Shown here piece after piece: positions 6,134-20,674 of a DNA stretch of 20,674 nt. Made by a program: the position numbers and the translations under genes. Each line of letters opens with the position of its first letter. The first letter of the stretch is position 1. The stretch is taken from positions 1 through 20,674 of the IMG/VR virus record IMGVR_UViG_3300044858_002176; one strand, written 5' to 3'. The notes beneath the pieces are model-generated. The model was given only the letters and a program-made list of their open reading frames with translations. It did not search any database and had not been told where the DNA came from. The stretch comes from a virus.

Positions 6134-6142
6134 ATTATATCA
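6134..6142 (-). promoter_or_regulatory. Leaderless-type extended -10, TGA-TATAAT-N5-ATG
   Basis: On the minus strand TATAAT (6134-6139) with a TGA extension ends 5 nt before the ATG at 6128, so transcription should start at or next to the start codon. The TGA is also the stop codon of the upstream Hint protein gene. Confidence 0.55.
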
Positions 6143-7414
6143 GTAATCAGGACGGTCAAAGACTAACATGTTCTCAGTAAAGAAGTTATCGTATGGCTCG
6201 CAGTTTATAGAAATTTTTTCCATTTCTACATTTACTTCTTCTACTGTTGTAATTGGTAGCCATGCTTGATGCTCATAATTATAAACCTCATAAGTTGTAT
6301 CAATATTAGGTGCCTGTATAAACTTAGTAATTCCGTCTTTTTTAACTAAAAGATAATGAGCAGGAGTATAAAGGTTTCCATTTATATGAATAAAGTTTTC
6401 AGCAGTTCCAGGAGTAACTGACATAACTGTTGTTTCTACAACAAGATCATTATCTAATTGTATATCAGAAGAACTCCACTCTGTCCAATTTGTTGTTTCA
6501 TTTCCACCTAAATTCATTGCATAAACTGTATCTCCAACAACCAAATCTTCAATAAATTTTGTTCCAGTTGGAGTCAATACTTTTGTTTGCACTGCAAGAG
6601 AGTCTCCCCAAACGGAAAATCCAAAAGAGTAAGGCCAAAAACCAAATACGTTAAATGCTGGTGCAAAAGCAAATACGCTAAATGCTGGTGCAAAACCAAA
6701 CACTCCAAATGGTGCAAAACCAAAAACTGCAAATGGAGCAAAACTAAATGGAGTAAAAGTAAAACTTGTAAAAGTTGCAGATGCTGCAGATGTAGAAGAG
6801 TTGCCATTTGCATTTGTTGCATATACTGTATATGCCTGAGCCGTTCCAGCCTCTTGAGCAACGTTAGCAGAAAGGGTTGATCCGCTTACCGTTCCTGTTT
6901 TACTATCATTAGATGCCCATGTATATCCTGTAATTGTACTTCCTCCAGTTGCTGGGGCTACCCAAGTTACAATATCTGTTGCTGTTTGTGACACTGTATC
7001 AATAGTTGGTGCTGCTGGAGTTGCTGGAACTGTTGTTACTGTTACTGAAGAAGAAGTTGTTCCACTTGCAGTTCCTGAAGCATTTGTTCCCTGTACTGTA
7101 AATGTGTATGAAGTATTAGATGCTAATCCTTGAAAAGTATAGGAAGGAGTAGATGAGCCAGTACTAACTGTATAGGTTGAAGGAGTGGTAGTAATAGTAT
7201 ATCCAGTTGCTGCTGGAGATCCTGCTGGAAGTGTCCAAGTAAGAGATACTGACCCACCTGTGCCTGCTGCTGATGCTGCTGAAGTAGTATTAGCGGTAGC
7301 AAGATAAGGACGAGATGTTCCTACGTTTGTGCCACTTAAAGAAGTAACGTTATCTGGTTGCAAAAAGTTATCTTGTGCTGAAGACTTGATACCTCTTTTT
7401 TTACTAACTGCCAT
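6140..7414 (-). CDS. Fn3 x2 - Phe/Pro repeat - Hint-domain virion protein (copy 1)
   Basis: 424 residues in three parts. Residues about 45-215 hold two fibronectin-III-like domains (GYTITTTPSTY, SNTSYTFTVQGTNASGTASG; ITGYTWASNDSK). Residues 218-267 are a run of F-x-P-F/V-F-G-F units (FTPFSFAPFAVFGFAPFGVF). Residues 272-424 read as a Hint (hedgehog/intein) fold: S272-LAVQTKVLTPTG matches the N-terminal splice block with Ser in place of Cys, IEDLVVGDTVYAM follows, T350-P-A-H353 is the TxxH block, and YDNFFTENMLVFD is the last block without the His-Asn needed for splicing. Inference: a surface protein that may cut itself at G-D/S272. AGAGGAG (7420-7426) is the ribosome site, 5 nt before the ATG. 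Its partner fibre gene is just upstream; a diverged copy of the pair is at 13605-15264. Confidence 0.85.
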   Translation of the reverse strand: MAVSKKRGIKSSAQDNFLQPDNVTSLSGTNVGTSRPYLATANTTSAASAAGTGGSVSLTWTLPAGSPAATGYTITTTPSTYTVSTGSSTPSYTFQGLASNTSYTFTVQGTNASGTASGTTSSSVTVTTVPATPAAPTIDTVSQTATDIVTWVAPATGGSTITGYTWASNDSKTGTVSGSTLSANVAQEAGTAQAYTVYATNANGNSSTSAASATFTSFTFTPFSFAPFAVFGFAPFGVFGFAPAFSVFAFAPAFNVFGFWPYSFGFSVWGDSLAVQTKVLTPTGTKFIEDLVVGDTVYAMNLGGNETTNWTEWSSSDIQLDNDLVVETTVMSVTPGTAENFIHINGNLYTPAHYLLVKKDGITKFIQAPNIDTTYEVYNYEHQAWLPITTVEEVNVEMEKISINCEPYDNFFTENMLVFDRPDY

Positions 7415-11815: not shown

Positions 11816-12262
11816 TTATGCCTTTAATCCTATACGTGCATAACGTACGGTTATAGGCGTTGTACCGACTACTGGAGTAACCGTTAAGGATACTGTATTT
11901 CCAGCGCGGGAGACGCTAATGGTGCCAATATTCCCATCGTTGTCTATAGTTCCATATTCACTGACGCTAACATCTGTACCGTCAATTAATATGCTAATCT
12001 CTGTGGCGTAATATTTATTAGCGCCTCCAGAAGTATGTTTGATTGAGATTAGGTATTTAACCATTCTCCATTCTGTTGCGTTAAAATTATCAACTACCGT
12101 AGAACTTTCAATTCCGTTAATTGTTGATTCATTATTACCAGTAGTTCCTAAGTCTGTGGCTTGGGCTGATGCTGAGTCAATTAAATCTTCATAATCTTGT
12201 TGAGTAGGACGATCTCCTGTTTGAAACAGGGCTTTGACTGATGCCAATGATATTTTTGCCAT
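11816..12262 (-). CDS. Small virion protein with fibre-type C-terminal domain
   Basis: 148 residues. The N-terminus has ALFQTGDRPTQQDYEDLIDS, a short helical motif common at the start of phage tail/fibre accessory proteins. Residues about 62-148 (ATEWRMVKYLISIKHTSGGA, ATEISILIDGTDVSVSEYG, TVRYARIGLKA) resemble the last ~85 residues of the 596-residue fibre encoded next, so both may dock to the same partner or form the same trimer cap. There is no ribosome site; TGT-TATAAT lies 6 nt before the ATG, so the mRNA should be leaderless. The stop overlaps the ribosome site of the next fibre gene. Role inferred from context. Confidence 0.85.
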   Translation of the reverse strand: MAKISLASVKALFQTGDRPTQQDYEDLIDSASAQATDLGTTGNNESTINGIESSTVVDNFNATEWRMVKYLISIKHTSGGANKYYATEISILIDGTDVSVSEYGTIDNDGNIGTISVSRAGNTVSLTVTPVVGTTPITVRYARIGLKA

Positions 12263-12268
12263 AACTAG

Positions 12269-12277
12269 ATTATAACA
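12269..12277 (-). promoter_or_regulatory. Leaderless-type extended -10, TGT-TATAAT-N6-ATG
   Basis: Minus strand TATGTTATAAT, then CTAGTT, then ATG (12262). TATAAT occupies 12269-12274. The same TATGTTATAAT string with the same 6-nt gap stands before the gene at 12522-12923. Confidence 0.65.
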
Positions 12278-12294
12278 TAATTATTTTTATAATT

Positions 12295-12522
12295 TTATAA
12301 AATATAGTTGCTTAAACCAATGATTTGTAGTGGAATTGGCGGTGCATTATTAGCGTCAAAGGCTATAATATCTATATCAGTTATTCTTACTCTAAATGGT
12401 AAAAATTCATTTATTGTTATCCCTCTGTCAATCTTTTCTTCAATAGAAACTTTAGGAAATGTGTGTTGATCAATTGATTTTAATATTGTTGTTTGTTTAT
12501 CAAATATTGCAACAGAAGCCAT
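12295..12522 (-). CDS. Small virion-cassette protein, unknown
   Basis: 75 residues. The ATG overlaps the TAA of the upstream beta-sandwich gene by one base (TAATG), which supports it as a real, coupled gene. The C-terminal half (FLPFRVRITDIDIIAFDANN, then APPIPLQIIGLSNYIL) is hydrophobic beta-type sequence with Pro-rich turns, a style I associate with small phage tail or neck proteins. No signal peptide, transmembrane helix or catalytic motif is seen. Function unknown. Confidence 0.75.
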   Translation of the reverse strand: MASVAIFDKQTTILKSIDQHTFPKVSIEEKIDRGITINEFLPFRVRITDIDIIAFDANNAPPIPLQIIGLSNYIL

Positions 12523-13041: not shown

Positions 13042-13608
13042 ATGATTAAATTTATCGAAAGAAACAAAGAGATCATTAGCACACTCAGCATAGTGGCTTT
13101 AGTAGCGACATTATCAAACAATGCTAACGCTGAAACAAGAATAAGTGACAAAAATAATTTGAGTATAGAACAGGCTCAGGAGCAGGAAAACGCCTCGAAA
13201 GAGGTTTTTTTGGTTTCTAAAGAGGAAAATAATAAAACTAACAAAAAATACAAATATGGAACCCCCCTTGAAAAAGATGAACTAATTAAAATATTAAAGA
13301 ACGTAGGCTTTGAAGGATATTCACTAAAGGTTGCTTGGGCAACGGTAATGAAAGAATCTATGGGCACTCCTAACTCTTGGAATCCTAATAGACAGACTGG
13401 AGATAATTCTTATGGCCTATTTCAAATCAATATGCTTGGAGGACTGGGCGAAGAAAGAAGAAGCAAGTTTAATCTAAAGTCTAACGAAGATCTATTTGAT
13501 CCAGTTAGAAATGCAGAAATCGCTTATCATATGAGTAATGGTGGTAAAGATTGGTCTGCCTGGAAAGGCATTACCTGGAAAACTAAAGAGTGGATGGAAA
13601 GATTTTAA
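13042..13608 (+). CDS. Secreted SLT/lysozyme-type endolysin
   Basis: 188 residues from the ATG at 13042, chosen because AGGAGG (13031-13036) lies 5 nt upstream; an in-frame TTG at 13021 precedes the ribosome site. Residues 1-30 are a Sec signal peptide: basic start, hydrophobic core STLSIVALVATL, cleavage likely after ANA. A charged Glu/Asn/Lys linker follows to about residue 75. Residues 85-180 look like a transglycosylase/lysozyme fold: VMKESMG with E105 as the likely catalytic Glu, NSYGLFQINM (122-131), GGLGEERR, NAEIAYHMSNGGKDWSAWKG. It would cleave peptidoglycan glycan strands. It is the only plus-strand gene among the tail genes, with its own promoter, and ends 4 nt into the convergent Hint gene. 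The signal peptide suggests export without a large-pore holin. Confidence 0.9.
   Translation: MIKFIERNKEIISTLSIVALVATLSNNANAETRISDKNNLSIEQAQEQENASKEVFLVSKEENNKTNKKYKYGTPLEKDELIKILKNVGFEGYSLKVAWATVMKESMGTPNSWNPNRQTGDNSYGLFQINMLGGLGEERRSKFNLKSNEDLFDPVRNAEIAYHMSNGGKDWSAWKGITWKTKEWMERF
13193..13211 (+). terminator. Terminator-like hairpin inside the endolysin gene
   Basis: CCTC-GAAA-GAGG (a 4-bp stem, extended by one G-U, with a GAAA loop) followed directly by seven T. It lies in the signal-peptide linker region of the coding sequence. A TCTAAAGAGGAAAA string follows, like the TCTAAGGAGGAAAC of the true ribosome site. The stem is short, so termination would be partial at most. Confidence 0.4.
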
Positions 13609-14492
13609 ATCGGATCCCTAGAATCAAAAACCAACATGTTTTCTGTAAAGAAATTATCATATGGTTCACAGTTAATTGAATAAACAGTGTCTTCATATTC
13701 TATAACTTCTAAGATTTCAATTGGTATAAAAGATAATTCAGAATAAGAAAAAACTTTATATGAATTATCTATTTCATCAACTCTAATAAATCTATTAAGT
13801 CCATCTTTTTCAGTTAAAATATAATGTGATCCAGAATATAAATCTCCATTAATTAAATACAATTCATCAATTTGTCTTGGTGTTATTGAAACAACTTCAG
13901 TAGTTACAATGTTACTTTCATGAAGTTCAATATTTTCCGCTGACCAATTCAGCCAATCTGTAACAGTATCATCTATATCCATAGCAACAAGCACTTCTCC
14001 TATAACAAGATCCTTTGCATCTTTTCTTCCATTAATTGTCATAATTCCAGTATTGCTTGAAACTGAGTATTCAGAAAATTCTGGACTGAAAGGGCTAAAT
14101 GGTGCAAAAGGCGCAAATGGCGCAAACGGTGAAAACGGTGAAAACGGTGAAAATGGAGAAAATGGTGTAAAACCAAATGGTGGTGCTGGAGTCACTGAAT
14201 TGCTTGAAGCAGAGTCTAAAGAATTTACAATAGAGTTTCCAAGTTTAACTTTAAATGTATAACTTGTTCCATTACTTAAACCACTTACAGATATTGGACT
14301 TGAGGAACTTGTTGCAGTAATATTTCCTGGTGTTGATGTAGCAGTATAAGTCGTTCCTATTGGTTTACCTAAATAATTTGGTGCAGTAAAAATAACTGAA
14401 GCATTTGAATCTCCAGCACTTGCATTTCCTATTGTTGGAGTTTCTGGTTGATGACCTGCACTTCCTTCAGGGCCAATTGGATGCAATGGCAT
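13605..14492 (-). CDS. Fn3 - Phe/Pro repeat - Hint-domain virion protein (copy 2)
   Basis: 295 residues from the ATG at 14490-14492, one base after the stop of the upstream fibre gene (TAATATG); a longer frame to 14537 would overlap that gene. Residues 17-101 form one Fn3-like domain (GTTYTATSTPGNITA, SNGTSYTFKVKLGN). Residues 106-137 are a very regular run of (S/A)PF units. Residues 143-295 are a Hint-like domain parallel to copy 1: S143 at the position-1 site, DLVIGEVLVAMD, S220-G-S-H223 for the TxxH block, and INCEPYDNFFTENMLVFD, identical to the other copy over 18 residues. Catalytic Ser1 and His are kept while most other residues have changed. It has one Fn3 domain fewer than copy 1. Convergent with the endolysin gene, 4-nt overlap. 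Confidence 0.82.
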   Translation of the reverse strand: MPLHPIGPEGSAGHQPETPTIGNASAGDSNASVIFTAPNYLGKPIGTTYTATSTPGNITATSSSSPISVSGLSNGTSYTFKVKLGNSIVNSLDSASSNSVTPAPPFGFTPFSPFSPFSPFSPFAPFAPFAPFSPFSPEFSEYSVSSNTGIMTINGRKDAKDLVIGEVLVAMDIDDTVTDWLNWSAENIELHESNIVTTEVVSITPRQIDELYLINGDLYSGSHYILTEKDGLNRFIRVDEIDNSYKVFSYSELSFIPIEILEVIEYEDTVYSINCEPYDNFFTENMLVFDSRDPI

Positions 14493-14493
14493 A

Positions 14494-15264
14494 TTAAGCC
14501 ACCAAATCGCCGACAGCAACCCAAGTATCTGTAGCACGTTTAATTAATGTACAAGAAGACCATTGCGCTCTTAACTTAGCAGTATTTGCTGTTCCTTGAG
14601 GAGTGCAGTTTAAGGTAACTCCAGCAGTAACGTTAATTGTAGTTTGACCAGAATTAGTTTGAATAATTGTTACTTGTGATCCAATTGCAAAATCACCATT
14701 TGTTGCAGCATTAAGAGGAATTGTTAAAGTATTTGCAGAAACATTACTCATTTCAATAATATAACCGTTATCTGCTTTTACTAAGGAATACGTAGTTCCT
14801 GTTTGTGCATTTGTAGAAAAGTTTAATGGTGCTTTTGTATCTTGTAATGTTTTTACTGTACTTGCTGTTGCAGCCTGTGATTCTGATGTGCTAGTTAAAG
14901 TATTATTTAATGGTAATGCAGCCCACTTAAGGCCAGTTGCCGTTGTTGAGTCTGCCGTTAAAATATGTCCATCACTACCAACTGCTAGATTATCTAAATT
15001 ATTATTTGATGTACCTACTAAAAGATCGCCTTTAAGATCAATGATAGTTTCTTCTACAACATTTTCTAAACTTGTGTCAATTCCATCAATTCTTGTATCT
15101 ATATCATCTAAATATTTTGAAATACCTGCAGTTGCTGTGCCTTCTGGTTCTGCTTCTTGTCCCCAATGATAATATTTAAGCGCGACCTGTATGTCGGCTG
15201 GATCTGCCATTGCTGGAATTTTTGCTAGGGGATACTTAGAACTTCCTATATTTGTGGCTGCCAT
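14494..15264 (-). CDS. Tail-fibre protein, partner of Hint copy 2
   Basis: 256 residues. Residues 48-70 (ISKYLDDIDTRIDGIDTSLE) look like a short coiled coil; 78-116 (KGDLLVGTSNNNLDNLAVGS, ILTADSTTATGLKWAA) match the module in the 596-residue fibre. The C-terminal ~95 residues, ending KLRAQWSSCTLIKRA and TWVAVGDLVA, match the end of the 674-residue fibre. In both cases the gene encoded just downstream is an Fn3-FxPF-Hint protein, so fibre and Hint genes form a repeated pair. A TGC-TATAAT element lies 9 nt before the ATG and no ribosome site is seen. Likely a short trimeric fibre. Confidence 0.88.
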   Translation of the reverse strand: MAATNIGSSKYPLAKIPAMADPADIQVALKYYHWGQEAEPEGTATAGISKYLDDIDTRIDGIDTSLENVVEETIIDLKGDLLVGTSNNNLDNLAVGSDGHILTADSTTATGLKWAALPLNNTLTSTSESQAATASTVKTLQDTKAPLNFSTNAQTGTTYSLVKADNGYIIEMSNVSANTLTIPLNAATNGDFAIGSQVTIIQTNSGQTTINVTAGVTLNCTPQGTANTAKLRAQWSSCTLIKRATDTWVAVGDLVA

Positions 15265-20114: not shown

Positions 20115-20143
20115 ATACTAGCATAGAAATGTCAAAAAGTCAA
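20115..20143 (-). promoter_or_regulatory. Early promoter module 1
   Basis: On the minus strand TTGACT (20138-20143), 17-nt spacer, TAGTAT (20115-20120). The same two hexamers occur in module 2. It reads the four-gene operon ending at the terminator near 19189. A GlxR/CRP-like dyad is centred 29.5 bp upstream of the -35, about -64 from the start, where class I activators bind. Confidence 0.75.
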
Positions 20144-20162: not shown

Positions 20163-20182
20163 CATGTGATATACACCACATG
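20163..20182. promoter_or_regulatory. GlxR/CRP-like operator, module 1
   Basis: CATGTGATATACACCACATG: perfect 6-bp arms. Against the actinobacterial GlxR/CRP pattern TGTGA-NN-TA-NN-TCACA it has one mismatch (CCACA for TCACA). Binding by a host cAMP receptor-type protein is inferred. Confidence 0.6.
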
Positions 20183-20477: not shown

Positions 20478-20507
20478 ATACTATCACTATACCCTGCCAA
20501 AAGTCAA
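20478..20507 (-). promoter_or_regulatory. Early promoter module 2
   Basis: On the minus strand TTGACT (20502-20507), 18-nt spacer, TAGTAT (20478-20483). Drives the 48-residue gene. The GlxR-like dyad is again centred 29.5 bp upstream of the -35. Confidence 0.7.
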
Positions 20508-20527: not shown

Positions 20528-20545
20528 GTGTGATATAGGTCACAC
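20528..20545. promoter_or_regulatory. GlxR/CRP-like operator, module 2
   Basis: GTGTGATATAGGTCACAC contains TGTGA-TA-TA-GG-TCACA, a full match to the GlxR/CRP pattern including the central TA. Confidence 0.7.
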
Positions 20546-20581: not shown

Positions 20582-20647
20582 GTTATCCACATGATGTACA
20601 TCACATCTAGAATTGAGCGTAAGTTATCCACATGACCTACATCACAT
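20582..20647. repeat. Tandem 25-bp repeat with DnaA boxes (20582-20606 and 20623-20647)
   Basis: Two copies, 41 bp apart, of GTTATCCACATGA, two variable bases, TACATCACAT. Each holds a perfect DnaA box TTATCCACA (20583-20591, 20624-20632) and, on the minus strand, TGTGATGTA followed by (C/G)(A/G)TCA, a half-conserved form of the GlxR-like dyad. 41 bp is about four helical turns, so both copies face the same side of DNA. No promoter is visible at the distance used in modules 1 and 2. A replication or regulatory region may continue beyond the window. Confidence 0.75.
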
Positions 20648-20674
20648 TTCAAAATGTCCGTTTTAGTATGATTA

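Follow-up and report, generated by a model that had tools for sequence, protein, structure and literature searches.

The window analysed here is the whole of a 20,674-nucleotide viral record, and its right end carries two fused copies of a DnaA box and a CRP/GlxR-like dyad, followed by a conserved element and the truncated beginning of a promoter. Two predicted leftward promoters, each with a CRP/GlxR-type site of its own, lie to their left. The features are:

20115–20143, minus strand: second leftward promoter, TTGACT-17-TAGTAT, called by sequence match only
20165–20180: CRP/GlxR-like site TGTGATATACACCACA, located 60 bp ahead of the second leftward promoter's -10
20478–20507, minus strand: leftward promoter, TTGACT-18-TAGTAT, likewise a sequence match only
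20529–20544: CRP/GlxR site TGTGATATAGGTCACA, a perfect palindrome located 61 bp ahead of that leftward promoter's -10
20583–20606, plus strand: distal fused site, TTATCCACATGATGTACATCACAT, at the same position in relatives; DnaA box TTATCCACA at 20583–20591 and CRP/GlxR-like dyad CATGATGTACATCACA at 20590–20605, with CA common to both
20607–20623, plus strand: 17-bp spacer with AATTGAGCGTAAG, an element found in either orientation in relatives (TTGAGCGTGA or TTACGCTCAA)
20624–20647, plus strand: proximal fused site, TTATCCACATGACCTACATCACAT, 77–79 bp before the -10 in relatives; DnaA box TTATCCACA at 20624–20632 and dyad CATGACCTACATCACA at 20631–20646, with CA common to both
20654–20664, plus strand: conserved element ATGTCCGTTTT, separating the fused site from the promoter core
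20669–20674, plus strand: cut-off start of the promoter core region, which in the relative G001 goes on as CTGGTCAGTAGATGTCAGACCCCCCTGCTATACT and then the first small early ORF

Both fused sites contain the nine-base DnaA box TTATCCACA (TTATNCACA) exactly, at 20583 and 20624, bearing out the initial annotation's report of two perfect boxes 41 bp apart. That annotation also had each box overlapping the dyad on CACATGA; the fusion itself stands, but the bases in common are limited to the final CA of the box (20590–20591 and 20631–20632). In both copies the dyad has the form CATGA-N6-TCACA: compared with the CRP/GlxR pattern TGTGA-N6-TCACA, its TCACA half is perfect and its CATGA half carries two mismatches. 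A third exact TTATCCACA lies at 2770–2778 on the minus strand, inside a ribonucleotide reductase gene. When one mismatch is allowed, TTATCCACA alone shows no excess in the window (7 observed versus 8.2 expected), so it is the composite that carries the signal. Elsewhere on the minus strand, at 6140–7414 and 13605–14537, the window encodes two proteins with similar end segments (VLTPTGTKFIEDLVVGDTVYAMN and MTINGRKDAKDLVIGEVLVAMD) that by eye look like Hint/intein-type domains.

The last repeat ends only 27 bases from the right end of the record, so the initial annotation could not see what the repeats serve. G001, the closest relative, aligns to the window at 91–98% over most of its longer matched stretches and at 96.6% over the window's last 119 bases. 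In relatives the pair is followed, in order, by ATGTCCGATTTG, TTACTGGTCAGTA, the promoter core ATGTCAGACCCCCCTGCTATAAT, a Shine-Dalgarno-like sequence and several tiny ORFs in a row, which places the core just past the right edge of the window. The strict core, TGTCAG-N-TGnTATAAT, lies downstream on the same strand in 123 of 144 distinct fused sites and on the other side in none; a variant core, counted by eye, follows 19 of the remaining 21, so that 142 of 144 fused sites stand before a promoter in one orientation, the two exceptions being loci L199 and L214.

Distances from the fused sites to the -10 are mostly fixed, at -77 to -79 and -119 to -121, with partners 41–42 bp apart, and the promoters are of the extended -10 type without a consensus -35. 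The CRP-type sites show helical phasing that persists without the modal peak (Rayleigh p ~0.02) but is weak over distinct positions alone (p ~0.1). Together, the extended -10, the missing -35 and the phased CRP-type sites fit an activator, although by our own calculation the sites are displaced by ~3 bp from the classical class I distances of E. coli, so the two arrangements differ slightly. Further conserved elements lie nearby: 37 of 123 promoters have GTCCGATTTG or GTCCGTTTTG at -47/-46, and 29 of 123 have a dyad, TACTGGYYAGTA, spanning the -35 region about -30 from the -10. GTCCGATTTG and TACTGGYYAGTA suggest that additional regulators may act here. The tiny ORFs and their position indicate that the operon is probably expressed early; seven small downstream early ORFs had no match in PHROGs. 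Every perfect CRP site of G001–G003 falls inside a 5–12 kb early region.

The leaders, taken as the first 60 nt after the cores, often contain a 7-bp hairpin whose stems differ between loci (for instance L062, L044 and L072), as in TTGAGAA-AGG-TTCTCAA and TTGCTAA-AGG-TTAGCAA; hairpins with at least 7 pairs occur in 24 of 224 leaders against ~4 in shuffles.

The composite is widespread among viruses. The exact 22-base pattern recurs in 33 other IMG/VR contigs, a relaxed composite pattern in at least 119 viral contigs and the promoter core in at least 120, while a control with the box letters reversed gave no matches among viral contigs. The 24-mer is near-invariant as a unit, and the tandem pair occurs once per genome, or twice in one record, at a spacing of 41–42 bp (15 records of up to 110 kb). 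A scan of species genomes with the fused pattern gave no matches; with the promoter core, its sole match was L173, a 3.8-kb contig in a Methylophilaceae MAG that is probably a misbinned phage. A search of INPHARED with the promoter region returned chance-level matches only, and Rfam searches on four sources found one tRNA and nothing else. We conclude that the composite site is real and conserved, and infer that it is regulatory.

We find that the box and the CRP-type site are separable modules. Among 171 nonredundant promoters fetched by the promoter core alone, the region from -230 to -50 contains 61 copies of TTATCCACA (shuffle mean 0.4; downstream control 0) and 61 perfect TGTGAN6TCACA sites (shuffle mean 0.05; downstream control 3). 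Both motifs are thus more than 100-fold enriched over shuffles, and boxes and CRP-like sites co-occur in 37 promoters versus 18 expected (Fisher p 7e-12), counts that overstate independence because related promoters share ancestry. Five aligned, nonredundant sister promoters carry two intact TGTGA-N6-TCACA sites in the same places without DnaA boxes; in other promoters, an intact CRP site is separated by tens of bases from a single box or from two, facing either way. The CATGA half tracks the presence of the box at the proximal site (20 cases with a box, 2 without). Given this separate occurrence and the tie between CATGA and the box, the most fitting interpretation is that the box has been superimposed on a CRP-type promoter, at the cost of the dyad's left half. 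Some distal boxes have drifted to TCGTCCACA with CCACATGA still kept, a sign that the left half could have a role independent of a full DnaA box.

The phages that carry these promoters are large (~100–115 kb), uncultured freshwater viruses. Eight of 16 records carry WhiB genes, among them 8 of the 9 longer than 60 kb, and the DNA polymerase is 54% identical to that of Streptomyces phage BillNye, which together identify the group as actinophages related to Stanwilliamsviridae; the host is resolved to the actinobacterial level only. G001 also carries a phosphate-binding-like protein (PF12849; L039, 18145–19185) and a carbamoyltransferase (PF16861/PF02543; L040, 18594–19964), both phage-borne. 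Neither the DnaA C-terminal domain (DnaA_C) nor a Crp-type HTH family was found in any of the 16 phage records, so the binders would be host proteins: if the sequences mean what they say, host DnaA and host CRP/GlxR.

We propose that the two repeats make up the activator region for a rightward early promoter, which host CRP/GlxR activates and host DnaA modulates, and we consider this reading probable, though far from certain. Two CRP/GlxR-type sites, four helical turns apart, would act upstream of an extended -10 promoter. Since this promoter has no consensus -35, it probably relies on the cAMP-responsive CRP/GlxR of the host. The promoters of this subset have a putative host DnaA box overlying the half of each site that is farther from the promoter, where bound DnaA would occlude or share the CRP/GlxR site, making early transcription responsive to both host DnaA availability and cAMP. 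In this way the virus may sense two master regulators of its host as infection begins. Competition between the two proteins, raised in the initial annotation along with a role in sensing host replication, is the simplest form of this model, and both it and a host-state sensor are plausible; cooperation is also possible.

A simpler arrangement would have one regulator, phage-encoded or another host protein, read the whole 24-mer TTATCCACATGANNTANATCACAT, with the match to a DnaA box coincidental. The near-invariance of the 24-mer as a unit is what such a protein would predict, as is the retention of most of CCACATGA in distal copies with damaged boxes (TCGTCCACATGA, TTATGCACGTGA). We nevertheless judge this unlikely, since tandem TGTGA-N6-TCACA sites exist without TTATCC, TTATCCACA can face either way and stand at a different distance from a CRP site, and TTATCCACA is the exact DnaA consensus. 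It is also conceivable that the boxes act as decoys, titrating DnaA of the host and thereby stopping host replication initiation: many phages shut off host replication, and exact boxes would be expected to bind with high affinity. Genomes of this group hold only ~3–10 exact TTATCCACA boxes each, and many of these keep set places at promoters instead of forming arrays, making a decoy role scarcely credible.

The initial annotation had also suggested that the repeats form part of a phage replication origin, as DnaA boxes or iterons. Exact boxes in tandem, present as one pair per genome in most records, favour this idea, and in principle an origin close by might, as in lambda, be activated by transcription from this promoter. 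Counting against it, the pair sits at a set place and in a set orientation ahead of a promoter, on one strand, and sister promoters exist without boxes. The repeats consist of two boxes only, rather than several clustered DnaA boxes or a repeat array beside an initiator gene; in G001 the DNA polymerase and DnaB helicase genes lie at 5.5–12 kb and the fused site at 65.3 kb, ~50 kb away along the contig. Further repeats do occur outside the window, as the initial annotation's own test asked, but these mark promoters. No extremum of GC skew falls at the site: detrended extremes are 15–27 kb away in G001–G003 (for G003, the distance to the maximum treats the genome as circular), and the skew goes with the strand of the genes. 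Relatives, moreover, have DnaA-box clusters elsewhere that make better origin candidates, of three exact boxes in G002 (69602–69697) and G004 (12234–12309), ~12 kb downstream of the site (round the circle for G004), and of four and five in G018 (67757–67993) and G020 (26461–26600). On position, skew and the presence of these other clusters we reject the repeats as an origin, a role that we regard as highly improbable.

These separate clusters (loci L045, L179, L181 and L182 for G002, G004, G020 and G018) adjoin CTCCACTT and GGTTTGGAGGTTT-like repeats that are partly common to these genomes, and are better candidates for replication origins than the tandem repeats. At ~118.9–119.7 kb in the Streptomyces phages Annadreamy (L177) and BillNye (L178), exact TTATCCACA is clustered, in an ORF-poor gap of the former and a matching region of the latter, possibly a conserved origin. 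At L199, one of the two loci whose fused site has no promoter core after it, TTATCCACA is packed in both orientations around that site, unlike at the promoters, and this region may also be an origin.

The early promoter region of lambda (pR/ori-lambda) responds to the host initiator DnaA, which stimulates it (as cited in PMC3985674); here too, a phage early promoter region would respond to DnaA. The lambda DnaA-box-like sites lie near the origin and are not fused to CRP sites, whereas the boxes described here overlap CRP-type sites that lie ~75–120 bp before the expected start of an early promoter, at a place showing no sign of an origin. At the E. coli guaB promoter, a DnaA site is combined with a putative CRP site centred near -117.5, and DnaA overlaps the core promoter and represses (PMC2885671). 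As here, DnaA and CRP sites share one promoter; unlike here, the two sites are far apart and the promoter is that of a metabolic gene of the host. Lambda and guaB thus provide precedents for DnaA acting on promoters, in opposite directions. GlxR, the actinobacterial CRP, recognizes the consensus TGTGANNTANNTCACA and usually activates (PMC4254451). Actinobacterial GlxR/CRP promoters share with ours a TGTGANNTANNTCACA-type site upstream, whereas ours are phage early promoters in which the sites are paired at 41–42 bp and the left half is the end of a DnaA box. The closest annotated relatives seen, the Stanwilliamsviridae Streptomyces phages BillNye and Annadreamy, resemble this group in WhiB matches and DnaA-box clusters, but have 0–1 perfect CRP sites per genome versus 3–9 in 10 of 11 freshwater records searched. 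Literature searches, restricted to open-access sources, found no phage DnaA/CRP composite promoter.

To our knowledge, few phages of the abundant freshwater Actinobacteria have been cultured. A promoter signature in more than 100 contigs provides a handle for annotating the early genes of these phages, and suggests that their early expression depends on host CRP/GlxR. Whether DnaA couples the early transcription of a phage to replication of its host also becomes directly testable. More tentatively, and with rather less than even confidence, we suggest that these widespread, uncultured freshwater actinophages gate their first early operon through host DnaA and cAMP-CRP/GlxR, acting as mutually exclusive binders at tandem composite sites. 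If so, the onset of infection would directly read the replication and energy state of the host.
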